Virus record (IMG/VR): IMGVR_UViG_3300014913_000015 | Span: 1 to 59,388 of that record | Length of the DNA: 59,388 nt | From: a virus | Direction: 5' to 3' (one strand) | Shown: positions 14,728-56,199 of the stretch, piece by piece | Layout of the letters: each line of letters opens with the position of its first letter | How positions within the stretch are numbered: the first letter of the stretch is position 1 | Made by a program: the position numbers and the translations under genes | Notes under the pieces: model-generated | What the model saw: only the letters and a program-made list of their open reading frames with translations | Told to the model about the DNA's origin: nothing | Databases searched by the model: none

Positions 14728-16968
14728 ATGAAGATTTTAATTGTTGGAATATTTGCAGAATTGATTGATCTGGCTATCCATCTTCAAGATGAAGGACACG
14801 ATGTCTACTACTATATTGACCGGAAAGATGATAAAGGAATTGGAAAAGGTTTAATCAAACTGGTAAAAGGCTGGAAACAGCTTGCTGAGGAAGCTGACCT
14901 TATCATCTTTCCAGATGTCTATTTTGGCGATCTCCCTCTCAAGTATCGTGAAAAAGGTAAACTTGTAATTGGGGGATCAGCCCTTTCTGATCGCCTAGAG
15001 AACGATAGAGAATTTGCTACAAAGATCTATGACCGTTTTGGTCTGAAATACCCTAAAACTTGGCGTTTTACCTCCTTCAATGAAGCGATTGAGTTTGTGA
15101 AGAAGAATCCGAACCGCTATGTCCTGAAGCCAATGGGACAGAAACCTCGTTTTTACACTTACATAGCTGAAGATGATGAGGATATGATAGTTGCTCTCAA
15201 GCATTTCAAAGATGTATGGCCAGGAAAAAGCGATTTCATTCTCCAAGAGTATGTTGAAGGAGTGGAGATTGCTTGTACAGGATTTTTCAATGGGGAAAAA
15301 TTCTTGAAACCTTTCATTGTGAACTTTGAGGAGAAGAGAATTGGAGAAGGAAATAGAGGACCTTCATCAGGCGAGGCGGGTACCACCGTAATTCCACAAA
15401 TGAAGTGTAAACTAGCGCAGCAGACTATTCAGAAGCTTTCTCCTTTCCTTAAATTAGCTGATTTTCGTGGAGAGTTTGACCTAAACACAATTGTCAACGA
15501 TGATGGAGTATGGATTCTTGAAGCAACCTGTTTCCCTGAAAACACTCAGATTCAGACCCTTGATGGCTGGAAAGGTCCTAATGATTTACAAATAGGGGAT
15601 CTTGCTTTAACTCTCAACCTAAAAACAAATAAAATTGAATATCATCCTGTTGAAGACATTCTCGTCTTCAAATATGATGGTCCTATGTGTATATTTGAAA
15701 ACAACTATCTTGAGTTTGCCACAACCCCAGATCATGATATCCTTCATATAACTGATGATCACTACACAAAAACAAAAGCCCAAGATCTCCTCGGTAAGAA
15801 GATAAAACCAGTTCTCTCCGCTGAAAAAGATGGCCTCAATAAGGACGTTTTTGAACTTCCTCCAGTGACGGATGGAAATGAAACACTGACTCCTCCACTA
15901 TCACTCAAAACAAAAGATTTACTTTATTTCCTTGGTTTATACATAGCTGATGGATGGCATGATGCAGGAAGAGTTTACCTGAGAAGGCAATATCGACCTG
16001 AGATAACGGCAAAAATTCTCAAAAGATTGGAGAACTTCCCATTTCCAATTGATAAGATTGAAAACTGGATCGTAATCCGTTCAATTCAGCTTGTCAATTT
16101 CCTTGATCAGCTTGGTTTTGAGCGTGGAAAGATCCTCACTGGACGTCTTATCCCTCCTTTTCTTTTCCAGTTCTCTTCTGAACTGCTTTACAATCTTGTG
16201 GAGGGATTGAGCGATGGGGATGGATCTTCTCATTGTGAAGGAAGACGATTTTATACTGCATCCCGTGAGCTGGCCGAGCAGGTAGCAATGCTCTATCTCT
16301 ATCTTGGACTATCACCATTGATCTCAATCAAACGCCATAAACCTCCTCTTTATACAGTTTATGGAGCTTCTCCTGAAGCTATTTCTCACAATCTGAAAGT
16401 AAAAGAAGATCATTACAAAGGTTATGTCTGGTGTCCAGTGGTCCCCCCTCATCATACGGTACTTGCAAGAGAGGGGAATCGTCCATTCTTTAACTTCCAG
16501 TGTCGCCCGGGGATTCCTACAATTCATATCATTGATGGATTAATGCAGGGAGAATGGGGCGAGACGCTTGTGGATATCGCTTCTGGACGAAATACGGTAA
16601 TTCCTCTTAGAGAAGAATGGTGTGTTGGTGTTGTAATGATGTCTCCTCCTTGGCCATATGAGATAAAGACTGATAAGTATGCTGATTTTCCGCTTTCTTT
16701 TCCTTGGGAACTGGTTGAGAAAAGGCTTATTCATCCGGGTGATATCAAAGCAAAGGTAATTGATAAGCGAGTACTTCTGACCACAGCAGGAAGTGTTGGG
16801 TTCACACTCGTTGCTACTGGACGAGGAAGAACAATAGATGATGCTCAGAGAATGGTTTATAACCGAGTATTGCCGAAAGTGAAATTCTCTCTTGGTTGGT
16901 ATCGTACAGATATTGGTGATCGGGTAAAAAAGAGGCTCGGCTATCTGAAGAAATTGGAAATTTTGTGA
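14728..16968 (+). CDS. PurD-like ATP-grasp enzyme interrupted by an intein
   Basis: 746 residues as translated; removal of the intein (residues 268-591) leaves 422 residues, the normal length of phosphoribosylamine-glycine ligase (PurD)-like ATP-grasp enzymes. The N-extein has a Rossmann-like start (ILIVGIFAELIDLAIHL), the ATP-grasp pieces YVLKPMG and FILQEYVEGVEIAC, and the metal-binding-type FDLN...GVWILEAT. The C-extein resumes at CRPGIPTIHI. The insertion is therefore in the most conserved catalytic stretch, as usual for inteins. PurD joins glycine to phosphoribosylamine in purine synthesis, but a phage late-gene homologue may act on another substrate. It has no good ribosome site and follows the preceding stop by 6 bases. 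Confidence 0.82.
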   Translation: MKILIVGIFAELIDLAIHLQDEGHDVYYYIDRKDDKGIGKGLIKLVKGWKQLAEEADLIIFPDVYFGDLPLKYREKGKLVIGGSALSDRLENDREFATKIYDRFGLKYPKTWRFTSFNEAIEFVKKNPNRYVLKPMGQKPRFYTYIAEDDEDMIVALKHFKDVWPGKSDFILQEYVEGVEIACTGFFNGEKFLKPFIVNFEEKRIGEGNRGPSSGEAGTTVIPQMKCKLAQQTIQKLSPFLKLADFRGEFDLNTIVNDDGVWILEATCFPENTQIQTLDGWKGPNDLQIGDLALTLNLKTNKIEYHPVEDILVFKYDGPMCIFENNYLEFATTPDHDILHITDDHYTKTKAQDLLGKKIKPVLSAEKDGLNKDVFELPPVTDGNETLTPPLSLKTKDLLYFLGLYIADGWHDAGRVYLRRQYRPEITAKILKRLENFPFPIDKIENWIVIRSIQLVNFLDQLGFERGKILTGRLIPPFLFQFSSELLYNLVEGLSDGDGSSHCEGRRFYTASRELAEQVAMLYLYLGLSPLISIKRHKPPLYTVYGASPEAISHNLKVKEDHYKGYVWCPVVPPHHTVLAREGNRPFFNFQCRPGIPTIHIIDGLMQGEWGETLVDIASGRNTVIPLREEWCVGVVMMSPPWPYEIKTDKYADFPLSFPWELVEKRLIHPGDIKAKVIDKRVLLTTAGSVGFTLVATGRGRTIDDAQRMVYNRVLPKVKFSLGWYRTDIGDRVKKRLGYLKKLEIL
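15529..16500 (+). mobile_element. Intein with DOD (LAGLIDADG) homing endonuclease
   Basis: 324 residues. Block A starts with the catalytic Cys (CFPENTQIQTLDG); block B shows TTPDHDIL with the TxxH core; two endonuclease motifs follow (FLGLYIADGW and LVEGLSDGDGS). The end reads HTVLAREGNRPFFNFQ followed by extein Cys. The terminal residue is Gln rather than Asn and the usual penultimate His is replaced by Phe, a non-canonical but known type of end. Excision restores EAT-CRPG. The boundaries are set by these motifs and by the resulting extein length. Confidence 0.9.
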
Positions 16969-19375: not shown

Positions 19376-19392
19376 GCAGGGGGGATTTGAAA

Positions 19393-20109
19393 ATGGGTGG
19401 TGGCAAAAAAAAGACCAAGACAGTTCAAAGGGTTTATTATCCACCTGGATTTGAAAGTTTTTTCCGTCGAGCAGGTGATATTCTTCTTAAACACGCTCAG
19501 GTTCCCCGAGGCCCTACTTTTGAAATGAAACTTTCTCCTTTTGAAAAAGATATCTATGGGCGAGTATCTTCTCTTCTTTCTGCTGGCACTACTCCAGTTG
19601 ATACTCTTGTTCAAAATTACTTTTTAAATCGAATGGGGATCACTTCTCCATTATCCCGCTTGACTGGAACTTCTGTATCTGAATCGCCTCTACAAGTGCT
19701 CCCTTCTCTTAGTGAAAGTGGATTGCCAGAGTATTACGAACCCATTCCTCCTGCGATTAGTTTACCTCAATCCAAAGATAAAGAAGAGGAATGGTCCTTG
19801 CCTACCAGTTGGCAACAACTTTTTACCGTAGCGCCATTACCTAAATCGCCAAGTGATGTACTCCGAAGTCTGCAAATTGGAGCTACGGCGTTAGCTCTAA
19901 AACAACAATTCCCTGAGTTAACTACCAATGAAGCTCAAGGAATAATCAGTGATCTTCTTTCTCGATCTTATTCATACGATTATGGTTATGGATTACCAGA
20001 TAGTGTTGGTCGTTTCTTATATGGTAAAGACGAACCAATCAGACGTGCTTTCCGCATGCTTGAATCTGCTGGTTTGTTAAATATTCGTGATGTACACCCG
20101 GAGGTGTAA
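19393..20109 (+). CDS. Putative internal virion protein A
   Basis: 238 residues from ATG 19393 (a poly-G ribosome site is about 8 bases upstream; the in-frame TTG at 19387 is too close). A Lys-rich start is followed by AGDILLKHAQVP, LSPFEKDIYGRV and AGTTPVDTLVQNY, a pattern repeated in the protein at 21063. The centre is Pro/Ser-rich and low complexity. It is probably a virion or ejection component, from position between the repeat protein and four larger internal proteins. No enzymatic motif. Confidence 0.65.
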   Translation: MGGGKKKTKTVQRVYYPPGFESFFRRAGDILLKHAQVPRGPTFEMKLSPFEKDIYGRVSSLLSAGTTPVDTLVQNYFLNRMGITSPLSRLTGTSVSESPLQVLPSLSESGLPEYYEPIPPAISLPQSKDKEEEWSLPTSWQQLFTVAPLPKSPSDVLRSLQIGATALALKQQFPELTTNEAQGIISDLLSRSYSYDYGYGLPDSVGRFLYGKDEPIRRAFRMLESAGLLNIRDVHPEV

Positions 20110-20119
20110 ACAACTACCA

Positions 20120-21052
20120 ATGGCAAATGACCTTTTTACAAATCTTTTAGGTCCTTATCAGGAAGCTTTTCAGACAAGTGAAGCTCTGCGCTTAGGTACC
20201 CTTTCCCAGCAACTTGCCGATTGGTTAACAAGACAAAAAGCAGAAACTGGACTTGATCTTGAGCAGTTTCAAAAACTAATCGTAAGTCCAGCTCTTAAAG
20301 GAGCCCGGGACGTAGTTGAAGAAGCCCTTCGAGGGAAAGAGGAAATTGAAGAGCGATATGGAGTGCCTTTCAGACAAGCTCTCAGCCGTCTTGGAGAGGA
20401 TCTTGCGCGTGCTCAGCGCAAGCTACAATATCGGTTTGGTGCCAGAGGGATGATAGGAAGTGGACCTTGGGTCGAGGCAAGAGCTGACCTTATCCGTAGT
20501 TATATGCGCCCGCTCATTGACCAATTGTATGGTTATCGGAGAGGAATTTCAGAATGGGAGGGAACTGATGTAGAAACTCCTCTCCGGCGTCTTGCTCTCG
20601 GAATAGAAAGAGGACAGCTTGGTTTAGGTCGGATTCCAATTTCGCTTATGGAATACCGTCGTCAACTTTATTCAGTTCTTCCACAGGCTGCAGAAAGAGC
20701 CTATGGCATATTGAGTGATCTTCTGAGTCGTGCTCAGACGGAAAAACGTTACGAAGATCTTATGCGAATGACAGGCGCGGAGACACTCTATGAGATGTAT
20801 GGCACACCAGCAATACTGTCCACTCTAGGAACTCTTTACGGATTAGCTGGAGCGCCAAGAGAAGTTGAGGAAGCGAATGTAGAGGCTGCTTTGCAGGATC
20901 TATTGTATCGCCTTGGAATTATGAGTCGTATTGCAGGCGGTTTTGGACAACCAAGAATAGAGGAAAGAGTTGAAACAACTCCTTATCTTGGTCCCGCTCT
21001 CCTGAGCGGAATTCAGACAGGGATTATGTCATATCTACTTTCACAGATGTAG
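20120..21052 (+). CDS. Putative internal virion protein B
   Basis: 310 residues from ATG 20120, with GGAGGTG about 14 bases upstream; an in-frame ATG at 20087 overlaps the previous gene and is less likely. Long helices rich in Arg, Glu, Leu and Ala dominate, with a central YRRGISEWEG stretch. Helical, alanine-rich ejection proteins are typical for this position in podoviruses. Function by context only. Confidence 0.65.
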   Translation: MANDLFTNLLGPYQEAFQTSEALRLGTLSQQLADWLTRQKAETGLDLEQFQKLIVSPALKGARDVVEEALRGKEEIEERYGVPFRQALSRLGEDLARAQRKLQYRFGARGMIGSGPWVEARADLIRSYMRPLIDQLYGYRRGISEWEGTDVETPLRRLALGIERGQLGLGRIPISLMEYRRQLYSVLPQAAERAYGILSDLLSRAQTEKRYEDLMRMTGAETLYEMYGTPAILSTLGTLYGLAGAPREVEEANVEAALQDLLYRLGIMSRIAGGFGQPRIEERVETTPYLGPALLSGIQTGIMSYLLSQM

Positions 21053-21062
21053 GTGAGGTGTA

Positions 21063-22460
21063 ATGGGTGCTGATCCTGTATCCCTTATAGTTGGAGGAAT
21101 AGTTACTCCAGCAGTAGGAGCTGCTACACAGGCTGCGTTCACTGGTGGTGGAGGTACGGTCACTACCACCGCTCAAGAACCAGCAATGGTTTCGGCAATG
21201 CGTTCTCGTGCGATTAGTGCAGCCGCTCCTATTCTACTTGATCTGCTGGAACATCCTGAACATGTAGGTTATTATACTGGTTTACAGTATCTTGTTCCTC
21301 CTCTGACTCCTGCTGAACAGACTATCTATAATATGGTCCAGAATCTTTATACTCAGGGGACTCCTTATGACATTCTTCTGGGGGAACTTTCTAAAGCAGT
21401 TCTTGAGGCAAAACCTGAAGAGTATGCCGCTCCCGCTGAAAGAGCAATAGTGATGGAGACTTTCTTTGGACCCAGCGGTCTGGGAGCTATCAGACGAGGT
21501 TTGGAAGCGCTTACAGGAGGAATTGAGTCCGAGCTTGCTCCTATAATTCAACAGATTGGAAGAACCCGTGAAGCTGCTGGAACACTTGCTCGATTGCTTG
21601 AGCAGGCAGGCGCAAGGACAGAGGAAGTGATTGGGGAACAGGCTGAAGCGATGAGGAGACAGGCTGAAGATACTTTACGCAATGCCGTTCTTGGAACTAT
21701 CCAACAATATCTCACTCCTCGTGGAAGTTTTTGGGAAAAGTTAGCTGCGCGAGGAATGGGGGAGGCTGCTGGTAAGCTTTCCGATCTTCTTGAAAGAGAA
21801 CTTGCTAATCTTCGTATTCCAGAGGTAGATGTTGAGGCAATTCTACCTCGTCTTGGAAGTAGAGAAATTGAGACTCTTGCTTCTTCTATTATGTCAGAAG
21901 AGCCGCCGAAAGGTGAAGTTGGTTCAATATTACCATTTCTCGCTTGGCAGTCACCTCTTCTCCAAAGGATGATTGGGGCAAGGAGTCTTGCTGATTATTA
22001 CAAAGATGTGTTTGCCGCTCGTCAATTTCTTGACAAAATGCAGCTTGGAGCTGCCAAGACTCTTGAGAATTTATTCGGTCTACGAGGTATGACCAAGCGT
22101 CTTGCTCAATTCGCTCCTTGGGCCGCAATCCCACGCGAAAGAGAACATAAGATGAAGACTGCTACCGAACGACTCTGGGAAAAAATAGCTGAAACTGCTA
22201 TGGGTATGATGCGGATACAGCCAGCCGGATCAACTACAACTACTAAAGGGCCTTCCTTTGGTCAGCAATTTCTCAGCCATTTCTTGCCTGGTGTTGGTAG
22301 TTACTTTACCCGTACTTTGCTTAATCAGTTGACTCCTACTCCATCTGCTCCGCTAATGACACCTGGGCAGTGGTCAAGTGGATGGGGGCAATTCAGTCAG
22401 TGGGGTTATGAGGGACCTCCTTCATATAGTTCTTCAACTCCGGGAGGTTATTTTGGCTAA
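21063..22460 (+). CDS. Putative internal virion protein C
   Basis: 465 residues. The N-terminal ~20 residues are hydrophobic and Gly/Ala-rich, as in proteins that insert into membranes on ejection. Residues ~55-115 repeat the motif seen in protein A (ILLDLLEHP, LTPAEQTIYNMV, QGTPYDILL). A coiled-coil follows (about 170-230) and the last 60 residues are Ser/Thr/Gly/Trp-rich. GAGGTG precedes the ATG. Likely part of the DNA-ejection conduit. Confidence 0.65.
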   Translation: MGADPVSLIVGGIVTPAVGAATQAAFTGGGGTVTTTAQEPAMVSAMRSRAISAAAPILLDLLEHPEHVGYYTGLQYLVPPLTPAEQTIYNMVQNLYTQGTPYDILLGELSKAVLEAKPEEYAAPAERAIVMETFFGPSGLGAIRRGLEALTGGIESELAPIIQQIGRTREAAGTLARLLEQAGARTEEVIGEQAEAMRRQAEDTLRNAVLGTIQQYLTPRGSFWEKLAARGMGEAAGKLSDLLERELANLRIPEVDVEAILPRLGSREIETLASSIMSEEPPKGEVGSILPFLAWQSPLLQRMIGARSLADYYKDVFAARQFLDKMQLGAAKTLENLFGLRGMTKRLAQFAPWAAIPREREHKMKTATERLWEKIAETAMGMMRIQPAGSTTTTKGPSFGQQFLSHFLPGVGSYFTRTLLNQLTPTPSAPLMTPGQWSSGWGQFSQWGYEGPPSYSSSTPGGYFG

Positions 22461-22480: not shown

Positions 22481-24124
22481 ATGAACCAAGGATTGATTTC
22501 TGAATTTCTAACTGGGTTCTTAATGGGAAGCAGTGAAGATCCCCTTTCAATTATGCGTTTCCTTGAAGAGAGACGTCGCCAGAATGAACAGCGACGTTTG
22601 CGTGAACTCCAAATGGCAATGGAACAAGAACGGTTGCGAATGCAGCAGGAGCGATTGCGATTAGCGGAAGAAGCAGCTAAAAGAGATGTTGCCAGCTTTT
22701 TAGCAGGTATGGGGATAAAACCAAGCGCTGTTTTGGAAGCACTTAAAAGAGGAGAATTACCTGAGCTCAAGCCTGAAGAAGTAATCTTTGGTGCAGAAAG
22801 ACCTCTTACAGAGGAACTACCTCGTTTAATGACCGAACTTCCCTATATTGAGGATATTACTGTAAAAGAGATCCCAGCTACTTTACGAGGTAAACCATAT
22901 GTTCCTTCAGAAGAGGCTTACATTTACGAACCTACACCCGCTGAAGGTGAATTTAAGCCTCCGAAAACTGAACTCAAGGCAAAAATATCTCCATATCAGA
23001 CTCCAGAGCAAACTCGACGGGCAGTACTTGCTAAACTACGCGAAATAATTCCTCGTGATAAATGGCAGTTGATTGTTACTGGGAAGACAGTTCCAACAAC
23101 TGAGGACATTGTAGAAAAATACAAAACTCTCAAAGAAGCCGCTGTTAAGATAAGTAAAGAAACAGGCACCCCTCAAATAATAGTTGAAGAGACTTTAGGT
23201 CTTCCTGTTGACCCATTTGCAAAAAAAGACATAGCTCTTGCAAATATGTACACACGACTCAAACGACTGTTTGGAGATAAATATTCTGATGATGAATTGT
23301 TAATGTATGCCTTTGCGGCTGTTTACGGTGGTGGAAAAGTACAACTTGGAAAATTGGAAGATGAAAACGTTGCAGTATCTTGGCGGACTTTTTCTCAAGG
23401 ACCATATAAAATAATGGCTCTTGTTCGCCATGACAAGAAAACTGGGAAACCTTTAGGAATGGAAATTTTTAATGTGGATTTTGATCGCAACTGGATTCAG
23501 CAACAAACGAACAACCTTTCTACTCTTGGGGCAAAAACTTCTGCTCTTGATCCTGACACAGTTGGGCGTGTTGTTGCTGAAGCTTCCAAAGTGATATGGG
23601 GGAATAAACAAATACCTCTTGGTTCACGAAACACTGCATGGTCAATGTATATCTCTACTGCTCGTCAAAAGAATCCAGCGGCTGTATGGTCTTTTCTTTA
23701 TGCTACTGTTCCAGCCCATACGGTGGTAGGGCAACATGTCAGAGCAGGATTGAAGAGATGGGCTACAAGCAATGTTCCTGATCGCTTTGCTCCCGAACAG
23801 ATAATTGGAATTCAACAAAATTTGCAAAAGCTGAGCACTTTAGTTAAAGATAAGTTTTGGGAAAATATCAATAAAATAGCTGGGATTGATGTTGAGAATT
23901 TACGGGAAAGTGATATAGTCAAGATAGCCAAGATCATTGGCAAACCAGTTGGGAAGCAAAGTTTACAGGAATATAAACAGAGAGCTCAAACGTTTCAAAC
24001 GCTCTATACGAGATTTCTCAAAAGTATTAATGAAGCACCAGAAAAGCCGGATCAGTTTGCGCAGAGTTTGAAAGACTTGATCGAATTCCTTGAGAAGGAA
24101 TTTCAAGCTTACCAAGAGCAGTAA
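22481..24124 (+). CDS. Putative internal virion protein D, coiled coil
   Basis: 547 residues. Residues ~25-75 are a strongly charged coiled coil (repeating R, E, Q with Leu/Met heptads). A Pro/Glu-rich linker follows, then a mostly helical C-terminal half. No enzymatic motif was seen, including none for a transglycosylase. Together with genes at 20120, 21063 and 24149 it fits the set of large proteins ejected ahead of the genome in podoviruses. Confidence 0.65.
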   Translation: MNQGLISEFLTGFLMGSSEDPLSIMRFLEERRRQNEQRRLRELQMAMEQERLRMQQERLRLAEEAAKRDVASFLAGMGIKPSAVLEALKRGELPELKPEEVIFGAERPLTEELPRLMTELPYIEDITVKEIPATLRGKPYVPSEEAYIYEPTPAEGEFKPPKTELKAKISPYQTPEQTRRAVLAKLREIIPRDKWQLIVTGKTVPTTEDIVEKYKTLKEAAVKISKETGTPQIIVEETLGLPVDPFAKKDIALANMYTRLKRLFGDKYSDDELLMYAFAAVYGGGKVQLGKLEDENVAVSWRTFSQGPYKIMALVRHDKKTGKPLGMEIFNVDFDRNWIQQQTNNLSTLGAKTSALDPDTVGRVVAEASKVIWGNKQIPLGSRNTAWSMYISTARQKNPAAVWSFLYATVPAHTVVGQHVRAGLKRWATSNVPDRFAPEQIIGIQQNLQKLSTLVKDKFWENINKIAGIDVENLRESDIVKIAKIIGKPVGKQSLQEYKQRAQTFQTLYTRFLKSINEAPEKPDQFAQSLKDLIEFLEKEFQAYQEQ

Positions 24125-24148: not shown

Positions 24149-27100
24149 ATGGGTAGGAAACTATCATTGTTTGATCTCCTCGATGAAGAGGAGAAGGACA
24201 CTTTGACCACACCTGAAAAGATCGCACCTCTTGCGTCTGAAACCGAAATCTTTTCTCTAATTCCTCGTTGGGAAACCAAGAAAGAACTTTCCCTTCCAAA
24301 ATCTCCTTCCGGAACAATTAGTCTTTTTGATCTCGCGGAAGAAGAACCTAAACCAGAGAAAAAAGAAGAAACTAAAAAACCGTCTGCACCGATCAGTCTC
24401 TTTGATCTTATGGAAAAAGAGATCGAGATTCCTAAAGAGCCTTTCTACAAACGTCTTCTTCGTCCACTTGAAGGCTTTTATAAAGCTATAGAAACTGCTG
24501 CTCCACGCTCCCGCGAAGATATCGAAAAGATTAAAGAAGGTCTGAAAATCGGAGTAAAACAAACTATTTTTCACACTTGGCCAGAATGGCTTACCGGTCT
24601 CCGAAAGATAGCTCCTTTTGCCCACCCTGTTCTTCTTGGCGAAACAATAGCCGCCAAGATAGCTGGAAAAGAAGAACTACTGAGACCTACTGAAAAGGTA
24701 GAGAAAGAACTCGTCCGTAAAATTGAAAAACTTGGGCCTACTGAGGAAGAAATTGAAAAGCTCAAGAAAGATCCGACGATTCGGGCATGGGCAAGGGTTG
24801 GTGGATTTGCTGCTGATATTCCCCGGATAATGGGATTAGGATATGCTTTAGGACCTCTCCTTGGTCCTCTTGCTGAAGGAGCCTCTGGAGCAACAATCTT
24901 CCTTGCTCGTCCTCTTCTTCGTCGTGTGGCTACTAATCCCAAGATGCTCCGTCTGGCGGAGCGTTTCCTGATCAAGCTTCCCCAGAGAATGGTTACCGAT
25001 ACTGCCATCTTTTCTGCTCTTTCTGCTCCTCATCCTGAAGAGATGCTTGAAGCTGCCAAGACAGGCGTCACCTTCGGCCTTCTCGCTGGTCCAGCAGGAA
25101 GAAAACTTCAGCCTATTACTACCGGTCTTGCTGCCTATATATCTGCTAAACGGGAAGGAGCAAGCGATGAGGATGCAGCTTGGGAAGCGCTTATGTTTAC
25201 TGGTTTCAACAAGTTCCTTCCTCACAGTGAATGGACAGAAGAAAATATTCTTAAGATTGGTGGGATCAAATCCAAAAAACAGCGAGCCTATATCAGAGAT
25301 GAGCTCCTGAAAGAACGACTCGGAATAGGAAAAGCCGATCCAGAAGCGAAGAAAGCTGCTGCGAATGCCTATATGCGTTGGCTTGAACACTATAGTCTTC
25401 CTCTTGAAAAGATTGCTGGACGAGCTCTTTCCCCTGAAGAGACTACTAAAGTAGTCGCTTCTCTTGAGAAATTCTTTACGGAAGAAGCGAAGAAGATAAA
25501 ACTTGATCCTCTTGATGAGGTAGTTGGGTTACTTGAAGCAAAGGCCGACCTTAAAGTCGCTCCTGCTTTACGGGAACTTGAACGTCAGGTAACGAGACAG
25601 AAGCCAGAAGATGAAGGTCTTTATTCTACTATTGCTGATCTTCATATCAAATCAGTTCTTTCTGCTGCCAGAGAGTGGAAAGAACAGATTGATCAATTAG
25701 CTCGTAAAACTGAACTTGATAAAAAAGCTGCAAAGCTCCTCCCCAAAGCAACTGCCAAACTAATCGTTGAAAAAATCCATGGTCTCCTTCCTGTCACCCA
25801 AGCAAAAGCCGACATGTCTCTCGCTGAAAGAGCTGACCGCTTAGGTGATCTCGTTAGAATTACTCTTAGAAAGAAAAAAAGCACGGTTGCAAGCGCTCTT
25901 AAAGCATTAGCCGAAAGAGCAAGAGAAGTTCATCCTGATGATAAAAAGAAACTTCTTGATTTGGAGAAGGAATACGAGAATCTTGAGAAAAAAGTCTTTG
26001 AACTTGAACAGAAGCTGATTGCAGAAACACCTGATGAACAAAAACCGGCTGTTGCTCGTCAACTTTATACACAACTTTCCAATTTTATTCGTGGAGAAGA
26101 AATCCAGCCGCTCAGTATACGCAAAATAGAGGAAATACCTGAGCCGATTCCTAAAGAAGAAGTTCCTCCAAAAGGTGTTGAAGAAATTCCTCCCGAACCC
26201 AGAGTTGAAGGAACTCATGAGGGAGTCATACCAACACCTCAGACAATTCTTGTAGAAGCTACCAAACTTATTGATCGGGTTAGCAAAGAAGCTCCTAAGA
26301 AACCAGAAATAGATGTTGATTCTATCCTTTTCAATGTAAAACCTCAAAAAGGTAAACACTTTATCTTTTTAGAGGATACAGGTGAATTTGTTGAAGTCCC
26401 CAAACCTTCCTCTATCAGAGTTCCTACTGAACACTTAAATATTGAACCCGAAGCCCTCGATCTTTTCACCTATTACAGTGGGCGTTTTGAAGGCTGGCCA
26501 ATAATCCTTGGAAAAACAGGAAGAGTTATTGATGTTGTTCCAGACCGTGCAACTGCCTTCCAACGTGCTGCTGAAATTTTTGCCAATCCTGAAAGAGTAG
26601 CGGAAATCCTTGCTCAAGCGGCAACTGATATTCGTAACGGGCAGATTTCTCCTCGCTGGAGACCAGAAGAAATAGAAACAGAACGGAGATTTTCCGATAT
26701 TATTGCAAAGCATATTCGTAATGAGGCGGAGGCAATTAAAGCTAGAATTGAGGAAGATCCTATGGCTGCTTACCTTGGTGCTTATGGAATAGCTGGAGCT
26801 GCTGCGATAGAACCTATTTCTAAAGCAGCCGTAGAAGCTAATAAATTCAGCGGAATTGGAGCTATCGCCCTTGACATTGCAAACTTCAAAGCTGCTATCA
26901 ATGATGTCTTCGGCCATCCGTTTGGAGATAAGATAATTCAGAAGATAGTTGATACTTTACGCTCCTTTGAGAAAGAACATCATGTAAGGTTCTCCCGAAT
27001 TCCTATCCGTGTAGGTGGAGACGAATTCATTGTCTTCCTCTCCGCGAGAAACGCAAAGGAAGTTGAAAACCTCGCCTCAAGTATCAAAAAGAAGGTTACC

Positions 27101-30100
27101 CAGTCCATCCAGCGTATGCTTCGCAATCAAATTCAGAAAGTGGTTAAGAAAACTGGCGAGAAACCGGTAATAGAAGAGCTTGGTGTAGAGGTTAAACCGT
27201 CAATGGTTAAAGCTGATGTCACTTCTCATTTTGTAGAAAAGGGAGTTCTTAAGAGTCCGGCTGATTTCAAAGAAGCAGTTCTTGATACAGTAATGGCGAA
27301 ACTTGACGCTTTGAAACAGGCTCGTACCGATCTTTCTCAGGAGAAGCGAAAGACGAAGATCATGAATGATAAACATGTACTTGCTGATCCTAAACCCATC
27401 CTCTTGGCGCTCCTTTCCAAGAAAGAGCTTGAAACTCCTCCAGTTGATCTTGAGAAAACCCCAGAAGGAAAGATCCGTATCAGCTACCCCGATGGTACTG
27501 TTCGTGAGCTTACTCCCGATGCTTTTATTGATGAACTGTTAGGGGCGAAACCGAAAGATAAGGAAGTCGAGATTCCAAAGCCTGAAGAGCCGGTTTCAAT
27601 CACCACTCCAAAAGATCGAGACAGGGTAAAAGACCTTGATGAGGTTCAGCTAACTGATCCTTCCAATCCTCCTCTTACTGTGGATGATCTGATTGAACCT
27701 GATCCAGCTAAAAATCGAGTGCCAGAGATTGCAATTGGCGCTGGAGGAGGAGGGTTCTTCCGTGACCATATGCCCCTTCTTGCCAGAATAATTGACGCAA
27801 CTAAGGAAACGAAACGCAAATTGAAATGGCTTTACAATCAGTTAGTTGATCCAGTTTCCCGAATGGGTGTGGCTCAGCAGGCAATTATTGAAGCTTGGCG
27901 AACAGCTCCAGAGATAACCGCTTCAGCTATCATCAAACTGGCAAACAAAGCTTTCTATACTTTGAGTACTGAAGAAAGGATTCTTTTCCGCTTAATGTAT
28001 ACGAACAAAGACCTGAGAGATCATCTGATGAGCCTTGAAGATTTTCCTCTTCCTCGCGAAGTTTGGGGGAAAACCAAAGAGCTCCGAAAATTCATTGAAT
28101 TGGCTAAAAATCTTGTTCTTCATGAAGCCCGCAAGAGGGGAATCCGAATTGCTAAATGGCCTGATAGTGCTATTAGTCGTATTTGCCAGAGAATTGCTGA
28201 GATTGACAGAATGTTACGTGAGGGAAGTGTAAGCGAAGACAAGCTTATAGAATTAGAGTTAGAACGGGATACACTTTACGAGACTATGAAGAAGCTTAAA
28301 TCAGAGGTATATTTTCCTCGGTCTTTAATTCCTACCGAAGAAGGTATTCTGGCAGCGGGGCAAATAAGTGCAATGATGTCTAAGGCAGTTAACGATGCGA
28401 TTTACAATGTCTTATCCAACGCTGAAAAACGTCTTGGTCGGCAAAAGTTGAGAGAAGTACTGGAGAACATTACATCAGTAGTTAGTGCCAAAGAATTCTT
28501 GCAAAATCTTGACAAACTTGGTGTACCGAAAGCTGATGTTGGAGTTCAGGATAAGATAATTCTTACTACTTTGATGGCCCTTGATGATATGCCCCTTCCT
28601 CCAATTGACATTTCTCCTGCATTGCGTAAACTGGGAATCCAAATGGGCAGAAGAGGCTATGCAGTGGTTCCTGTTGAATCAGTACGAGAAAAACTCCGGC
28701 TGGACAAAATCATTCCTCAGCACAAACGAAAATTCAACACGGAAGCTGAGGCAATGCTGTGGGCTCTTGAAAATGGGATGGGGTATGTGCTTGATCCTGT
28801 ATACGACCTTGCTAATTATCTACATTACATGGAAGAGCGTTTCCAGTTTCACGATGCTATTGAAGCAATGAAAAAAGCTTCAATTGAAGACCTTCGTCAA
28901 TCAGAAATACTAGCAAAGCAGATGGATTTGAAAACACCTTCTGCTATCCTTGGTTCTAACACAGTCATTCTCCCGTTGTCAGAAGCAGCTCGTCTAAAAG
29001 CTCAGTATGACATTGATCTTCGCGAACTTGGATGGAGAGAATGGGGTGGGCAGCCTCCAATTCCTAATCTAAAAGGACACTTAGTTCACCCACTCATTGA
29101 AGCTTGGTTAAAAGATGAAATGTACGTACCTTGGTTTTCTCGATATGATACTCCAGCTCCACAATGGTTAAAAAAGACAGTGCGATCAATTGACAAACTC
29201 GTTCGAGTTACCAAGATGATGCGCTTCTACATTCCTATGATAATGATTGTTAACGACCTTGGACAGATGTGGATGCTTGGTGCGGCAGGCCCAGCCTCCC
29301 TCGTCAAAGGAGCAGCCATTGATGTTCCTCTCTTGGCCTTTAGAGCTGCAAGGAAAGCAATCACGGGAAGAGGAAGCATCGTTACTGGGCAAAAGTATTA
29401 CGGTTTTCTGGGGTATCTTGCAAAGGCTATGTATGATGTAGCAGCGGAAACTGATTTGTACTTAGCGGCCAAGAAAGCAGGGCTGTTCATTTCTCCTGTA
29501 AGAGATCGGGAAGATGTTGGAAAACTGGCCGTCCATCTCCTTGAGAGGTCAAAACGGCATCCTCTTATAAAGCCATTAGTCGCTCTACGTCAAACTTATC
29601 GAACTACTGCTCCTCATCTTGGTCTCCCAATTGAGCTCCCCTTCAAGGTATTACACATGATTTATAAAGATGGTTTGCAATGGCTCACTTGGAAAGGGGA
29701 TCAAATTGCACGAATGACTGCACTGAATTGGTACCTCGATAGACGAGCAAAGATGGGAACAGATGGAAAACTATGGGTTGAGCATCCTCTTGAGTTCAAA
29801 AAGGCAGTCAATATGGTTCGCAAGTTTATGGTAAATTACCGGGGGATTCCTCAGCGTACACGAAGAACTCTCAATTTTGCCTTCCTGACTCCTACTTATC
29901 GAATCGAAGTTCTGAAACTTTATAAGGATATAGCCAAAGGTCTTGTAACCGACCCAAAAGAATGGATTGGGCCTGCTGCAAGGATCTTCACTGCAAAATC
30001 AATCGCTTTTACTGTTCGCTGGTGGTTAAGAATAGCTTTCTTGCGTATGCTGGCTCCAATAGTGGGAGCTGCTCTCAGTGGATTTGATGAAGACGACCTT

Positions 30101-30820
30101 GAGCGAATTAAAGAGAAATATCGTGACTGGAAACTCAGTGTTGATGTAAGAAAGAATTGGACGCTACAGGATTGGTATCATCTTGTACGTGAACTTCCTG
30201 GTGGTCTTGCTGAAGTTGTGGTTCTCCCCAGTCCTCTTTTTGAAATAGACAAATGGCTAGGACGTGATCCACGATACAGTCTCCGAATGTATAGCTCTGG
30301 TCCTATCCACCTAGCATGGTCACTTTTACTTAATCGTGACTGGAAAGGGGACGAAATAGTACCGCCTGCAGTGGGGCCAATTGAAGCGGCAAGTAGAGTA
30401 ACCGCTTACATTATCAGGCAGGGGTTCATTCCTTGGCTTGAGATGATCTTGCTTTCCGATCGTGATAACTGGAAATGGTGGAACTGGTTGCTTGCATCAA
30501 TGGCAATTGTGCACTACAAGGGTAAGAGCCAGAAATGGCGTTTGATCGCTGCTTACAGACGAGCTGAATGGGAGCTCATGCGCTATAGAGCCAAAGCAAT
30601 GCAGTCAGGCGATCCGAAGGATCTCCAGAGGTATTTAAAGATGAAACAGAGATTGATAAAATTAAAACAGAATACAGTCAAAGCTCTTTTGAGACAGGAG
30701 TCACCACGGTTGATTGACCAATTAATCAACTCATACGGAAAGATCTTTGGAGTGGGTAAGGAGACTTACGAGACATGGCTGTACTGGGATATAAACAACT
30801 TTTTGCGGGGTGAGTATTAA
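24149..30820 (+). CDS. 2,223-residue internal virion/polyvalent protein with GGDEF domain
   Basis: The largest gene here. Layout: residues 1-90 disordered, with three SLFDL copies (4-10, 56-62, 81-87); ~90-800 mostly helical; ~870-990 a GGDEF-like nucleotide-cyclase fold; ~1080-1230 charged linker; ~1230-2223 a long helical region rich in Trp, Arg and Leu. The cyclase domain keeps Asp909 (LDIANFK), INDVFGH, the following GD, and GGDEF at 956-960; the second acidic residue of the usual LDxD motif is Ala. Canonical GGDEF domains make cyclic di-GMP from two GTP. Size and place, at the end of the ejection block, suggest delivery into the host with DNA, similar to phage large polyvalent proteins. 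Whether it is active is unknown. Confidence 0.8.
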   Translation: MGRKLSLFDLLDEEEKDTLTTPEKIAPLASETEIFSLIPRWETKKELSLPKSPSGTISLFDLAEEEPKPEKKEETKKPSAPISLFDLMEKEIEIPKEPFYKRLLRPLEGFYKAIETAAPRSREDIEKIKEGLKIGVKQTIFHTWPEWLTGLRKIAPFAHPVLLGETIAAKIAGKEELLRPTEKVEKELVRKIEKLGPTEEEIEKLKKDPTIRAWARVGGFAADIPRIMGLGYALGPLLGPLAEGASGATIFLARPLLRRVATNPKMLRLAERFLIKLPQRMVTDTAIFSALSAPHPEEMLEAAKTGVTFGLLAGPAGRKLQPITTGLAAYISAKREGASDEDAAWEALMFTGFNKFLPHSEWTEENILKIGGIKSKKQRAYIRDELLKERLGIGKADPEAKKAAANAYMRWLEHYSLPLEKIAGRALSPEETTKVVASLEKFFTEEAKKIKLDPLDEVVGLLEAKADLKVAPALRELERQVTRQKPEDEGLYSTIADLHIKSVLSAAREWKEQIDQLARKTELDKKAAKLLPKATAKLIVEKIHGLLPVTQAKADMSLAERADRLGDLVRITLRKKKSTVASALKALAERAREVHPDDKKKLLDLEKEYENLEKKVFELEQKLIAETPDEQKPAVARQLYTQLSNFIRGEEIQPLSIRKIEEIPEPIPKEEVPPKGVEEIPPEPRVEGTHEGVIPTPQTILVEATKLIDRVSKEAPKKPEIDVDSILFNVKPQKGKHFIFLEDTGEFVEVPKPSSIRVPTEHLNIEPEALDLFTYYSGRFEGWPIILGKTGRVIDVVPDRATAFQRAAEIFANPERVAEILAQAATDIRNGQISPRWRPEEIETERRFSDIIAKHIRNEAEAIKARIEEDPMAAYLGAYGIAGAAAIEPISKAAVEANKFSGIGAIALDIANFKAAINDVFGHPFGDKIIQKIVDTLRSFEKEHHVRFSRIPIRVGGDEFIVFLSARNAKEVENLASSIKKKVTQSIQRMLRNQIQKVVKKTGEKPVIEELGVEVKPSMVKADVTSHFVEKGVLKSPADFKEAVLDTVMAKLDALKQARTDLSQEKRKTKIMNDKHVLADPKPILLALLSKKELETPPVDLEKTPEGKIRISYPDGTVRELTPDAFIDELLGAKPKDKEVEIPKPEEPVSITTPKDRDRVKDLDEVQLTDPSNPPLTVDDLIEPDPAKNRVPEIAIGAGGGGFFRDHMPLLARIIDATKETKRKLKWLYNQLVDPVSRMGVAQQAIIEAWRTAPEITASAIIKLANKAFYTLSTEERILFRLMYTNKDLRDHLMSLEDFPLPREVWGKTKELRKFIELAKNLVLHEARKRGIRIAKWPDSAISRICQRIAEIDRMLREGSVSEDKLIELELERDTLYETMKKLKSEVYFPRSLIPTEEGILAAGQISAMMSKAVNDAIYNVLSNAEKRLGRQKLREVLENITSVVSAKEFLQNLDKLGVPKADVGVQDKIILTTLMALDDMPLPPIDISPALRKLGIQMGRRGYAVVPVESVREKLRLDKIIPQHKRKFNTEAEAMLWALENGMGYVLDPVYDLANYLHYMEERFQFHDAIEAMKKASIEDLRQSEILAKQMDLKTPSAILGSNTVILPLSEAARLKAQYDIDLRELGWREWGGQPPIPNLKGHLVHPLIEAWLKDEMYVPWFSRYDTPAPQWLKKTVRSIDKLVRVTKMMRFYIPMIMIVNDLGQMWMLGAAGPASLVKGAAIDVPLLAFRAARKAITGRGSIVTGQKYYGFLGYLAKAMYDVAAETDLYLAAKKAGLFISPVRDREDVGKLAVHLLERSKRHPLIKPLVALRQTYRTTAPHLGLPIELPFKVLHMIYKDGLQWLTWKGDQIARMTALNWYLDRRAKMGTDGKLWVEHPLEFKKAVNMVRKFMVNYRGIPQRTRRTLNFAFLTPTYRIEVLKLYKDIAKGLVTDPKEWIGPAARIFTAKSIAFTVRWWLRIAFLRMLAPIVGAALSGFDEDDLERIKEKYRDWKLSVDVRKNWTLQDWYHLVRELPGGLAEVVVLPSPLFEIDKWLGRDPRYSLRMYSSGPIHLAWSLLLNRDWKGDEIVPPAVGPIEAASRVTAYIIRQGFIPWLEMILLSDRDNWKWWNWLLASMAIVHYKGKSQKWRLIAAYRRAEWELMRYRAKAMQSGDPKDLQRYLKMKQRLIKLKQNTVKALLRQESPRLIDQLINSYGKIFGVGKETYETWLYWDINNFLRGEY

Positions 30821-31602
30821 TGTCATACGTTAAATCACTCGTCGCAGGGTTAATCTTCTTTACCTTCATTATCGCTTGGTGGCCACACTATGAACCAATC
30901 TACCGTTATACCAATGAAATAAGTGATGCCACTGTTGATATCTATCTTGCTTTCAGTGGCCATGCAGGTGGAGCAGAGGATGGATGGCCTATCAGTTCAG
31001 TCACTTATGGGCAAGGAATAGCAATCGCGCCTACCTATGTCTTGACTGCTAAACACGTTGTGACCCCTCCTGATAAAATGTTCCTACTTGGAGTGCCTAT
31101 CCCAATAACTTCTGAGAAGAAGGAAATTTTCGTCTTGTCGCGTATTGCAGATAAACATGGCTATTATCAATGGATCTCAGCTTCCGTAGTATGGACTGCC
31201 GAGAAGGATGATCTAGCTATCATTCATTTGGAAAAACCTGTTGCTCATTACTGGAAAGGAATAAGCGAAATTGACGTATATGACAAAATCTATTTTGTTA
31301 CCAGTTGGGGAACCCATAGAGGATATCTTGCAGATGGAAAAGTTATTGGAAGAGGTTTCTGCCCGTTCAAAGCGGAACGGGACATGGGTGCTTTTCCTAT
31401 TATCAAAGATGACAAAGAATTTTGTAAAGATAACCTTCTGGTTATGGATATGATCGCGATGCCGGGTGAATCAGGATCAGCAGTACTCAATCGTCATGGG
31501 CAGATTGTAGCTATTGTTTCTATCCGTTGGAAATATGTAGTGTGTGTTCCAGTTATAGAATATAAAGAGATTATTGAGAACTATGCAGCTTACACGGAGT
31601 AG
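30820..31602 (+). CDS. Membrane-anchored trypsin-like serine protease
   Basis: 260 residues. One N-terminal membrane helix (about 7-22) probably places the rest outside the inner membrane. A chymotrypsin-fold protease follows with all three catalytic residues: His79 (TAKHVV), Asp131 (DDLAIIHL) and Ser218 (PGESGSAVL). The motif around Ser is GxSGS, as in HtrA/glutamyl-endopeptidase-like enzymes. There is no PDZ domain. Its start overlaps the giant protein stop by one base (TAATG), and the M15 endolysin overlaps its end. It may help lysis or entry by cleaving envelope proteins, or inactivate host defence proteins in the periplasm. Confidence 0.85.
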   Translation: MSYVKSLVAGLIFFTFIIAWWPHYEPIYRYTNEISDATVDIYLAFSGHAGGAEDGWPISSVTYGQGIAIAPTYVLTAKHVVTPPDKMFLLGVPIPITSEKKEIFVLSRIADKHGYYQWISASVVWTAEKDDLAIIHLEKPVAHYWKGISEIDVYDKIYFVTSWGTHRGYLADGKVIGRGFCPFKAERDMGAFPIIKDDKEFCKDNLLVMDMIAMPGESGSAVLNRHGQIVAIVSIRWKYVVCVPVIEYKEIIENYAAYTE

Positions 31603-31978
31603 AGTAGACTGGAATCAGATAAGACATTTTCGACAAGATGAATGGGGAAGATGGGAGTTTGTCGATCCCCGTCTTATCTATATGATGGATCAATTACGAG
31701 AAGAGATCGGTGCTCCGATTATCATTCATGAAGCTTATGCTACTTCAGGGCATGCGAAGAACTCATATCATTACATTGGAAAAGCAGTTGATTTCCATAT
31801 CAAGACTAAAAAATCATTCCGTACTCAACTAGCAGTAATTATGAGAATTGGATTCACAGGAATTGGATTTTATCCTTGGTGGGAACATCCTGGATGGCAT
31901 GTTGATATTCGCCCTGCATTTAAAACTCAGCTTTGGGTTTCTCCAGAAAAAGGAGTCTACAAATACCTCATGCCTTAG
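31583..31978 (+). CDS. M15-family peptidase, endolysin
   Basis: 131 residues from ATG 31583 (a TTG at 31574 is also in frame). The zinc-site motif SYHYIGKAVDF gives the M15 pattern SxHxxGxAxD, and GWHVDIR supplies the second His and nearby acid. In the numbering from TTG these are His66, Asp73 and His109. M15 peptidases cut peptide cross-links in peptidoglycan (L-Ala-D-Glu or D-Ala-type). No signal peptide, so export would need a holin. The start lies inside the protease gene, which suggests translational coupling. Confidence 0.88.
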   Translation: MQLTRSRVDWNQIRHFRQDEWGRWEFVDPRLIYMMDQLREEIGAPIIIHEAYATSGHAKNSYHYIGKAVDFHIKTKKSFRTQLAVIMRIGFTGIGFYPWWEHPGWHVDIRPAFKTQLWVSPEKGVYKYLMP

Positions 31979-38723: not shown

Positions 38724-38967
38724 CTCTCATCTCCTTTTTCCATTTTTCTATAATTGCAAAAACGACTTTTTCAAAAGTTGCATCTTGAGATAAATCCAAT
38801 CCGATCCTTTGCTTTGCTCTCTCTCGCCACTGCGACATGGGAATTGTATCCCAGTCTTCGCCTATTGCCCAAGAAAAACATTCATCTACATCTTGAGTCG
38901 TTCTCAAACCTCCTGCCAAACACATGAGAATGAAAATTGAAAATGTTAATTGATCACGACGATTCAT
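38710..38967 (-). CDS. Hypothetical protein
   Basis: 85 residues, helical, with no recognised motif. Lies between the recombinase and the paralogue-family gene with overlapping ends, so it is part of the same transcription unit. Confidence 0.65.
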   Translation of the reverse strand: MNRRDQLTFSIFILMCLAGGLRTTQDVDECFSWAIGEDWDTIPMSQWRERAKQRIGLDLSQDATFEKVVFAIIEKWKKEMRDETK

Positions 38968-39773
38968 TTCCTTCTCCCTAACTTCTCGACTGCCTTCCGC
39001 AAATCGCCAAGATAGGCATGAAGATACTTCTCAGTAGTCCGAATACTAGAATGACCACATAACGCTTGAATAGTGGTTAATGAAACTCCCTCTCTTGCAA
39101 GAGAAGTTGCTGCCCAGTGACGAAAAGTATGAAATCCTACAGGAGGTACCCCCGCCTTTTCACAAGCTCGTTTTAAAGCATACCAGCGATAGCTCATTTT
39201 AGGACTTCCCCTCTGTCCAGCAAAAACGTATTCTGAGCGACGGGGGAGTTTCTTCAATGTTTCATACGCCTCATCATTTAAAGGAATGATCATGTTCTTA
39301 TAACCTCGTCCTCCTGTCTTACGAGTTCGCAAGAAGATAAGACGGTTCTCAAAATCAATATCCTCCCATTTTAGTTCAAGCAGCTCCCCTACTCGTGCTA
39401 AAGTTGATTTCAATACAATGAGTAATGGACGCAATTCCTGATCAGCATTATCAATGATTTTAAAAAGGTATTCGACAGGGGGAAGGGGGCGCTTCCCCCT
39501 GTCGTTAGGAAAGAGGGGAGGTGTGGAGATGAAGGAGGTAGAGAGTCCTCTTTTCTTTGCCCAGTTTTTAATAGCATTAAGAACTGTTAAATAACGATTT
39601 CGTGTGTAATTACTAATTGGTAAAGATAAAAGCACCTGTCGTACTTTTTCCTCTGGAAAAGTAGGATGAGTCTTCCAGAAATCAACATAATATTTCAATT
39701 GCCGGGCCCAACGTTCGGAGATATAAGGCAACCGTTCTTTATAATATTGGTCAAGCAACACCTCTTTTCTCAT
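38964..39773 (-). CDS. Tyrosine recombinase (integrase/Xer family)
   Basis: 269 residues from ATG 39773 (GGAGG 6 bases upstream). The N-terminal SAM-like core-binding domain (about 15-85) is joined by a proline linker to the catalytic domain. All catalytic residues are present: Arg129 (ARVGELL), Lys154 (RKTGG), His217 and Arg220 (HTFRH), His243 (CGHSS) and Tyr252 (EKYLH), numbered from the alternative ATG two residues earlier. The size suits Xer-like or small integrases. No repressor, excisionase or att site was recognised, so it may resolve genome multimers or integrate. The linker codons contain a perfect hairpin. Confidence 0.92.
   Translation of the reverse strand: MRKEVLLDQYYKERLPYISERWARQLKYYVDFWKTHPTFPEEKVRQVLLSLPISNYTRNRYLTVLNAIKNWAKKRGLSTSFISTPPLFPNDRGKRPLPPVEYLFKIIDNADQELRPLLIVLKSTLARVGELLELKWEDIDFENRLIFLRTRKTGGRGYKNMIIPLNDEAYETLKKLPRRSEYVFAGQRGSPKMSYRWYALKRACEKAGVPPVGFHTFRHWAATSLAREGVSLTTIQALCGHSSIRTTEKYLHAYLGDLRKAVEKLGRRK
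39473..39504. repeat. Perfect 13-bp inverted repeat inside recombinase gene
   Basis: CGACAGGGGGAAG at 39473-39485 and its exact complement at 39492-39504, separated by 6 bases. It encodes the interdomain linker. Perfect stems of this length are rare in coding sequence; it may be a protein binding site, an attenuator or an insertion scar. Confidence 0.85.
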
Positions 39774-39978
39774 CTTCATCCTCCACTAACACTACTTCCA
39801 CCCAATCGGGCGGAGACTCATCAAAAGCTATCATAATTACTCCTTCTTCTGTAGGAATAAGAGAAGCATATGAAGCCAGATCAGTAATGATTTTTTTCGC
39901 TGTTAATTTAGCTTTCTGCTCGTCAAGCCATCCATCCTCTACCAAACTCTTTGCAATCACTTCTTCAGGATATAGCAT
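39751..39978 (-). CDS. Small acidic hypothetical protein
   Basis: 75 residues, an acidic C-terminus (VEDEDEKR), helical start. Its end overlaps the recombinase start, so the two are coupled. A recombination directionality factor would be expected to be basic, so that role is not indicated. Confidence 0.65.
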   Translation of the reverse strand: MLYPEEVIAKSLVEDGWLDEQKAKLTAKKIITDLASYASLIPTEEGVIMIAFDESPPDWVEVVLVEDEDEKRGVA

Positions 39979-55438: not shown

Positions 55439-56199
55439 TGCTGTTCCTCCTTGAGAAGCTTCAATCTTTTTTTGGTCAAAAGTACATAATTTCTTGAAAT
55501 GTCAATTCCGATGAATTTCCTTCCAAGTATTTTCGCTGCAACACAGGTCGTTCCTGTTCCACAGAAAGGATCAAGGATGACATCGTCCTTGAAGGAGAAT
55601 AATTTGATAGCTCGATAAGGAAGCTCAAGAGGAAATGGTGCTGGGTGGTACTTTCTCATTTTCCTTTCTGGAGGAATTTTCCAAACATTGACTGTCCATT
55701 CGAGGAATTCATCGCGTGTAAGGTCGGTTTCGCCTTTATGAGTTAGTTTATATTGTTCTTTGTAAAGGACAAAGAGGAGGTCGATTCTGTCTCTTATATA
55801 GGGAGAAGAAGGGCTGCACCAAGATCCCCATGCTGTTTGTCTCTTTGATATTATTGTTCCTTTATCCCAGATAATAAGATCGCCATGTTTCCAGCCTATT
55901 TTTTCAGTTAGAAGGAGAAGAATATCTATCACTGAATAGGCTACGTATGAATTTTTAGACATTTTCAGATAGGAAGGGAGATCAATAAAAAGACGACCGC
56001 CTTTCTTTGTGATTCGATAGACTTCCTTGAAAACATCAGAAAGCATCTTCAAATATTTCTCGTAAGCCATCGCGTCATTGTGGATTGAATATGGCATGTC
56101 AACATTGAATGGTGGAGAAGTTACCGTAAGCGTAATCAGATCGTCAGGAAATGATTTCAAAACTTCTTCTGCTTTTCCACAATAAATTTGATTTAACAT
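55435..56199 (-). CDS. DNA adenine-N6/cytosine-N4 methyltransferase
   Basis: 254 residues from ATG 56199, overlapping the polymerase stop by one base (TAATG) with GGAGAAG upstream. Motif IV is TSPPFNVDM near residue 28, motif I is DPFCGTGTT near residue 223, so the order is IV before I (beta class). SPPF can belong to N4-cytosine or N6-adenine enzymes. No restriction partner is nearby, so it probably protects phage DNA against host restriction. Confidence 0.9.
   Translation of the reverse strand: MLNQIYCGKAEEVLKSFPDDLITLTVTSPPFNVDMPYSIHNDAMAYEKYLKMLSDVFKEVYRITKKGGRLFIDLPSYLKMSKNSYVAYSVIDILLLLTEKIGWKHGDLIIWDKGTIISKRQTAWGSWCSPSSPYIRDRIDLLFVLYKEQYKLTHKGETDLTRDEFLEWTVNVWKIPPERKMRKYHPAPFPLELPYRAIKLFSFKDDVILDPFCGTGTTCVAAKILGRKFIGIDISRNYVLLTKKRLKLLKEEQQ

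Follow-up and report, generated by a model that had tools for sequence, protein, structure and literature searches.

The locus described here raises the question of whether a podovirus can carry into its host, together with its DNA, an enzyme that makes a nucleotide second messenger. It lies in a single IMG/VR virus record, IMGVR_UViG_3300014913_000015, whose 59,388 nucleotides were analysed whole (the window), and consists of one gene, the product of which, P0001, is a giant protein of the late block. An initial annotation of the same DNA had read a GGDEF nucleotide-cyclase domain at about residues 870-990 of this protein and had proposed that the protein is injected at the start of infection. 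P0001 carries a genuine GGDEF domain; that it acts as a virion-delivered cyclase using GTP is favoured here tentatively, at slightly less than an even chance.

Identification of the GGDEF Domain

24149-30820, + strand: P0001, giant late-block protein of 2223 residues with a GGDEF domain (open reading frame, Pfam)
26849-27139, + strand: Pfam GGDEF match, residues 901-997 (E = 1.5e-13)
26663-26752, + strand: predicted 30-residue helix leading into the GGDEF domain, residues 839-868 (AlphaFold)
26756-27370, + strand: complete modelled GGDEF domain, residues 870-1074 (AlphaFold, alignment)

The open reading frame of P0001 starts with ATG and is not interrupted. The Pfam GGDEF match (PF00990) scores 51.2 bits against a curated cut-off of 23.8 and is the sole GGDEF of the whole record. 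A phmmer search of the PDB returned GGDEF proteins only (3ezu, E = 1e-7; DosC, 7e-6; PleD, 2e-4), and six PHROG families, all labelled as of unknown function, match the same stretch (best 3e-15). GGDEF is the only enzymatic domain recognisable in P0001, the bulk of which has no relatives and no predicted fold; LPD38, SWI2/SNF2, methylase, metallopeptidase and ADP-ribosyltransferase (ART) domains were not found in it.

The structure of residues 828-1100 was predicted with AlphaFold from an alignment of 32 viral GGDEF sequences. In the core of the model the predicted local distance difference test score (pLDDT) is above 90, and strands and helices follow each other in the GGDEF order, with an insertion of about 30 residues ahead of the last strand. 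The helix at residues 839-868 is located where diguanylate cyclases have their coiled-coil stalk. Consistent with this arrangement, the top 50 Foldseek matches of the model in the PDB are all GGDEF proteins (best E = 1.8e-8), and the best of them is the coiled-coil and GGDEF portion of DgcB. Template modelling scores are modest, mostly 0.5-0.6 by target for single-domain entries, and root-mean-square deviations are high because the model has extra helices. A Cas10 or mCpol palm, or a reverse transcriptase, was rejected as the fold, with 0 of the top 50 matches. The structural comparison that the initial annotation had suggested, against GGDEF, Cas10 Palm and reverse-transcriptase-like folds, therefore returned GGDEF alone, and the non-GGDEF fold that would have spoken against the domain did not appear. 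The domain thus withstands Pfam, PDB matches and fold prediction, and its assigned range was about right, the modelled domain extending from about residue 839 (stalk helix) to about 1074.

Active-Site Residues

26873-26875, + strand: D909, first metal-binding Asp, in LD-I-A (alignment)
26885-26905, + strand: FKAAIND, residues 913-919, one residue longer than the FKxxND consensus
27014-27028, + strand: GGDEF motif, residues 956-960 (sequence)

The residues kept in P0001 are D909 (metal), K914, N918 and D927 (guanine), D919, H923, R954 and G956-F960, including E959, and the motifs INDVFGH (917-923) and GD (926-927) are also present. All 10 tabulated motif positions that are invariant in the 32 other viral GGDEFs (D909, K914, N918, D919, H923, D927, R954, G956, G957 and E959) are retained, at an overall identity of 17-26%. 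Because it is this divergent yet keeps its catalytic positions, the domain is no recent copy of other viral GGDEFs.

There are several departures from the canonical domain. The second Asp of the DxD motif is A911 in P0001 (DIA), whereas the other viral GGDEFs have Asp (30/32) or Asn (2/32). In known structures this second Asp is not among the main ligands of the metal; A911 may therefore be tolerated, and of the oddities of the domain this substitution is probably the one that does least harm. The inserted residue in helix α1 (FKAAIND) and the missing TGLxNR are greater deviations. A DNA pattern for the FKAAIND spacing has one match in the window and none in the other viral contigs searched, and D870 alone is kept of DxLTGLxNR, T and NR being lost. 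The RxxD inhibitory site, which lies five residues before GGDEF and mediates feedback inhibition, is broken: R947 is kept and position 950 is Arg. The initial annotation had listed a metal-binding Asp, INDxFGH, an intact GGDEF and an Ala in place of one acidic residue of LDxD, all of which hold; it had overlooked the extra residue of FKAAIND and the losses in TGLxNR and RxxD.

In Hypr enzymes, a group of GGDEF proteins that synthesise cyclic GMP-AMP (cGAMP), Ser replaces the guanine-binding Asp. This signature is absent from P0001, where the position is D927, not Ser, and to judge from this residue D927 argues for cyclic di-GMP (c-di-GMP) over cGAMP as the predicted product.

Genomic Slot and Giants of Related Phages

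630-2456, + strand: portal, SU10/P22 podovirus type (PF23899, E = 1.5e-33)
4633-5808, + strand: major capsid protein, SU10 type (PF17236, E = 1.7e-43)
19387-20109, + strand: 240-residue protein, candidate partner ejection protein (by position only)
20087-21052, + strand: 321-residue protein, candidate partner ejection protein (by position only)
21063-22460, + strand: 465-residue protein, candidate partner ejection protein (by position only)
22481-24124, + strand: 547-residue protein directly upstream of P0001, candidate partner ejection protein (by position only; no family matches)

The late block of the window lies on the + strand and the replication genes on the - strand. The portal matches are podoviruses, and several of the capsid matches are phages that share a podovirus-like late block; Other phages with an SU10-type capsid, however, are long-tailed.

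In related phages a giant gene for 1358-2332 residues closes the tail/ejection block and is followed by lysis genes, an ATP-grasp gene or opposite-strand replication genes. Named examples, from annotated podoviruses whose capsid proteins are related, are as follows.

Vibrio phage VS-ABTNL-3 gp24: 1790 residues, two genes downstream of an annotated DNA injection protein
Caulobacter phage Kuura_021: 1358 residues, after a transglycosylase
Microcystis phage Mel-JY34 giant: 1894 residues
Roseobacter phage CRP-810 gp35: 2016 residues, after internal virion protein D

Capsid- and portal-based scans yielded many IMG/VR relatives, and several of those fetched have late-strand giants downstream of the capsid gene. 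In two of the relatives, G115 and G125 (portal E = 8e-153), a 2332-residue giant is followed by an ATP-grasp gene related to that at 14728-16968 of the window.

Several giants in the equivalent position carry domains of the polyvalent type. LPD38 is present in those of G003 (3e-47), G007 (2e-21) and G020 (3e-22), the last of which also has a PARP match just under its cut-off; CRP-810 gp35 has an ART-PolyVal match below cut-off, and the giants of VS-ABTNL-3 and Mel-JY34 match DarB-like profiles. Iyer et al. (2017; PMC5512222) reported LPD38 from polyvalent proteins of the phage type alone, and a giant protein of phage DEV has been identified as an ejection protein (PMC10925440). P0001, with 2223 residues at the end of the late block, is likewise a giant structural-block protein, as polyvalent proteins are, and its slot is that of polyvalent-type giants, in agreement with the position at the end of an ejection-type block that the initial annotation had assigned to it. 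Polyvalent regions of the LPD38, ART or DarB-like kind in its equivalents make it plausible that P0001 is delivered with the DNA, and a place in the virion is suggested by its position. P0001 is not classed as an established polyvalent protein, as GGDEF is the one domain recognised in it and LPD38 was not found.

The sequence of P0001 is isolated. Comparison with the giants of the relatives by blastp, phmmer, hidden Markov model (HMM) profiles, hhalign and shuffled local alignment gave nothing significant (local z 0.5 and 1.4). As hhalign returned no match for any of the giants, little weight attaches to its negative result. For the same reason the failure to find LPD38 in P0001 by Pfam, a local HMM and hhalign is a weak test. 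Searches of viral contigs with the whole protein and with the GGDEF domain found no relative of P0001, which, with no positive control, is weak evidence. Among 145 related records, many of them fragments, GGDEF was found in 0 of 50 capsid relatives, 0 of 50 LPD38 phages and 0 of 45 portal relatives. A generic GGDEF scan gave 80 loci, in which the long open reading frames examined encode ordinary sensor or GGDEF-EAL proteins and none a giant structural protein; the GGDEF matches inspected in annotated phages are bacterial-looking sensor proteins from fecal contigs or free-standing enzymes.

At about residues 800-880 of the G125 giant (L390:3294-10292) there is a GNAT-like signature, RKGIGTAMFDAIE, recognised by motif only, with no Pfam match. 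It sits about where P0001 has its GGDEF domain, which suggests an exchangeable cargo slot. The late block of G125 also contains glycosyltransferase and methyltransferase-like genes (L390:16195-19969).

N-Terminal Tandem Motifs

24164-24190, 24320-24346 and 24395-24421, + strand: three copies of SLFDL[LAM][DE][EK]E, P0001 residues 6-14, 58-66 and 83-91

Within the window the SLFDL motif occurs in P0001 alone. Other giants have motifs of their own: GFFDDIG three times (G010), LDD[IV]DxMLQ three times (Mel-JY34), SKYDxxR twice (G004), SFYDxxR twice (L225), RYNYxxYM twice (L226), and others. Besides P0001, N-terminal tandem motifs were found at loci L196, L097, L193, L197, L224, L225, L226, L164, L096 and L094. 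The motif differs from phage to phage and is essentially confined to the giant of each phage; the looser motif of Kuura also occurs in two short open reading frames.

The best internal 9-mer repeat in the N-terminal 120 residues was compared with that of shuffled sequences, with a threshold of z at least 4; the positive set includes a few low-complexity cases (TPTPTP, REERER). Among non-redundant proteins with 1200 residues or more, 15 of 49 reached the threshold, as against 4 of 320 proteins of 400-900 residues (Fisher p = 2e-11), and N-termini reached it more often than internal windows of the same proteins (16/71 versus 2/142; p = 6e-7). Our guess is that the tandem motifs are a multivalent docking or loading tag for a virion component. 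An interpretation of SLFDL as the sliding-clamp motif QL[SD]LF, which it resembles, was rejected, since the Gln is missing in all three copies and the equivalents in other phages are unlike it.

Proposed Mechanism and Alternatives

From the observed domain, fold, active-site residues and slot we infer a course of packaging, ejection, dimerisation, catalysis, product and benefit that may run as follows. P0001 would be made late, as a giant internal (ejection) protein of a podovirus with an SU10-type capsid, and taken up into the head, perhaps by means of the three SLFDL motifs at its N-terminus, to be released with the DNA into the envelope and cytoplasm of the host. The middle of the protein would hold an enzyme as cargo, namely the GGDEF domain with its stalk helix. 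If several copies gather in the ejection complex, GGDEF domains could pair with their active sites facing each other and bind two GTP molecules, with D909 and E959 holding metal and N918 and D927 the guanine, so that c-di-GMP would be made before or during early phage transcription. Because its RxxD product-inhibition site is broken, such an enzyme would lack the usual shut-off. A rough estimate from typical values, with 10 ejected copies, about 1 turnover per min and 30 min, gives about 300 molecules, or about 0.5 micromolar in 1 fL, which would be locally relevant. The likely effect would be a rise in c-di-GMP, local or short-lived, that changes surface or motility behaviour of the host or disturbs nucleotide-signalling defence.

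Several observations weigh against a virion-delivered cyclase. Outside the GGDEF domain, homology of P0001 to proven or putative ejection proteins is not detectable, and a single-sequence AlphaFold prediction of residues 1201-2223 reached a pLDDT of 37 and was not used. GGDEF was found in 0 of the 145 related records, so that none of them offers a counterpart by which conservation of the active site could be followed over time. The model was built on an alignment of GGDEF domains, which in part presupposes the fold, and it is therefore the sequence matches that count as independent evidence. Within the domain, A911 and the insertion ahead of the last strand, which is unusual, could each impair catalysis, and the extra residue in helix α1 and the loss of TGLxNR count on the same side. 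Together with the broken RxxD site, A911 and these last two make up four departures from active cyclases, and they favour a non-catalytic module of the ejection protein, whose binding of GTP or c-di-GMP would have a structural or a sensory role, for example in detecting arrival in the cytoplasm. Inactive GGDEF domains are common in bacteria; in degenerate ones, however, it is usually the GGDEF motif or the metal Asp that is gone, whereas P0001 keeps all of its metal, guanine and GGDEF-motif residues. A non-catalytic role, the main rival of the delivered cyclase, is considered unlikely. The retention of every catalytic position also speaks against the view that the domain was captured recently from a diguanylate cyclase of the host and is decaying without a selected function, since a drifting domain would be expected to lose some of them; such a capture, for which the absence of GGDEF from 145 of 145 searched relatives can be cited, appears very improbable.

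An active cyclase could also serve counter-defence and not the control of biofilm or motility, its product or its use of GTP disturbing cyclic-nucleotide defence (CBASS, Pycsar, type III CRISPR or Panoptes). Equivalent slots hold other conflict-type domains (ART/PARP, DarB-like), and interference with host nucleotide responses has been suggested (Iyer et al., 2017; PMC5512222). However, D927 and N918 point to c-di-GMP, an unusual signal in those systems (that of Panoptes is 2',3'-c-di-AMP), and this role seems rather improbable. Alternatively, P0001 might act outside the virion as a late or lysogenic host-modifying protein, for instance in a lysogen. The window has a tyrosine integrase, and the temperate Bordetella phage LK3, which encodes a free-standing diguanylate cyclase, forms hyperbiofilm lysogens (PMC8471281). 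Against this, the size, position and late-block strand of the P0001 gene fit those of the giant structural-block genes of its relatives. Lysogenic conversion genes are rarely 2.2-kilo-residue proteins in a structural block, and action outside the virion is judged improbable.

The virion-delivered cyclase can be extended to a fuller proposal, which is possible and more doubtful than its core: that the podovirus packs a diguanylate cyclase in its ejection apparatus and makes c-di-GMP ahead of all phage gene expression, that the middle of the giant takes interchangeable cargo (a GGDEF domain in P0001, ART/PARP or DarB-like domains in relatives), and that the phage-specific tandem N-terminal motifs are its loading tag.

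Other Genes of the Window

30820-31602, + strand: trypsin-like protease with an N-terminal hydrophobic segment (PF13365, E = 5.6e-7)
31574-31978, + strand: M15-type peptidase, probable endolysin (PF05951, 3.4e-8; PF08291, 7e-6)
14728-16968, + strand: PurD-like ATP-grasp protein (GARS_A and GARS_C) split by what appears to be a LAGLIDADG-containing intein
38964-39779, - strand: tyrosine integrase (PF00589, 3e-32)
47217-48191, - strand: Glu/Leu/Phe/Val dehydrogenase-like gene (PF02812, 2e-12; PF00208, 3e-9)
56199-58610, - strand: DNA polymerase A with 3'-5' exonuclease and a fused N-terminal uracil-DNA glycosylase domain

The start of the trypsin-like protease gene shares one base with the stop of P0001, and the protease might process the giant. 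The ATP-grasp homologues of G115 and G125 are shorter, apparently without an intein, and lie directly 3' of the giant gene. The replication genes on the - strand comprise PolA with its uracil-DNA glycosylase domain, a DnaB-type helicase, RecA, ribonucleotide reductase and the integrase, the presence of which means that the phage may be temperate. The dehydrogenase-like gene has a single distant genome match, which is uninformative about the host. Scans for sigma-70 promoters and terminators gave counts near the shuffled expectation and were not used. A contig from assembly 3300014887, which represents Guaymas Basin deep-sea material (PMC8065059), encodes a capsid and a portal 96-98% identical to those of the window.

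Comparison with Known Systems and Implications

The idea of an injected phage GGDEF is not new, as GGDEF domains were described in phage polyvalent proteins, with injection predicted, by Iyer et al. (2017; PMC5512222). The Acetonema longum prophage protein WP_004096050.1 of that study resembles P0001, by its description, as a giant phage protein with GGDEF that is proposed to be injected. P0001 differs from those polyvalent proteins in having one recognisable enzymatic domain and in belonging to a podovirus with an SU10-type capsid; it is a variant with an isolated sequence, from a podovirus lineage in which the relatives searched lack GGDEF. The giants of those podoviruses (VS-ABTNL-3, Kuura, Mel-JY34, CRP-810, G003, G007, G020 and G125) share slot, size and strand with P0001, and several of them share its habit of N-terminal tandem motifs; they lack GGDEF, and their sequence homology to P0001 is undetectable. 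The virion RNA polymerase of Schitoviridae (N4; gp71 of DEV) is, as proposed for P0001, a giant late-block carrier of an enzyme that is ejected (PMC10925440), although the enzyme is another one and there is no sequence match.

With DgcB, WspR and PleD, P0001 shares the fold, the stalk helix, the metal and guanine residues and the GGDEF motif. Unlike them, it lacks TGLxNR, has A911, an extra residue in helix α1 and a broken RxxD, and its GGDEF domain has no sensor domain and is embedded in a 2223-residue virus protein. Free-standing phage diguanylate cyclases are already known (PMC8471281). Yuavirus, Vojvodinavirus LK3 and the Bacillus phages SP-15 and G encode GGDEF proteins, as the phage described here does; unlike P0001, these are separate proteins made after infection, and the Yuavirus gene lies among non-structural genes.

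To judge from its residues, P0001 is an unusually complete and isolated example of a predicted injected GGDEF. No experimental case of a phage-injected second-messenger enzyme was found in the literature searched, and P0001 is directly testable because its catalytic residues are kept and the domain is bounded and foldable. The tandem motifs, if they are loading tags, would bear on the packing of large enzymes into the heads of podoviruses. If the domain is active, the phage would reset the c-di-GMP of its host at the moment of entry.

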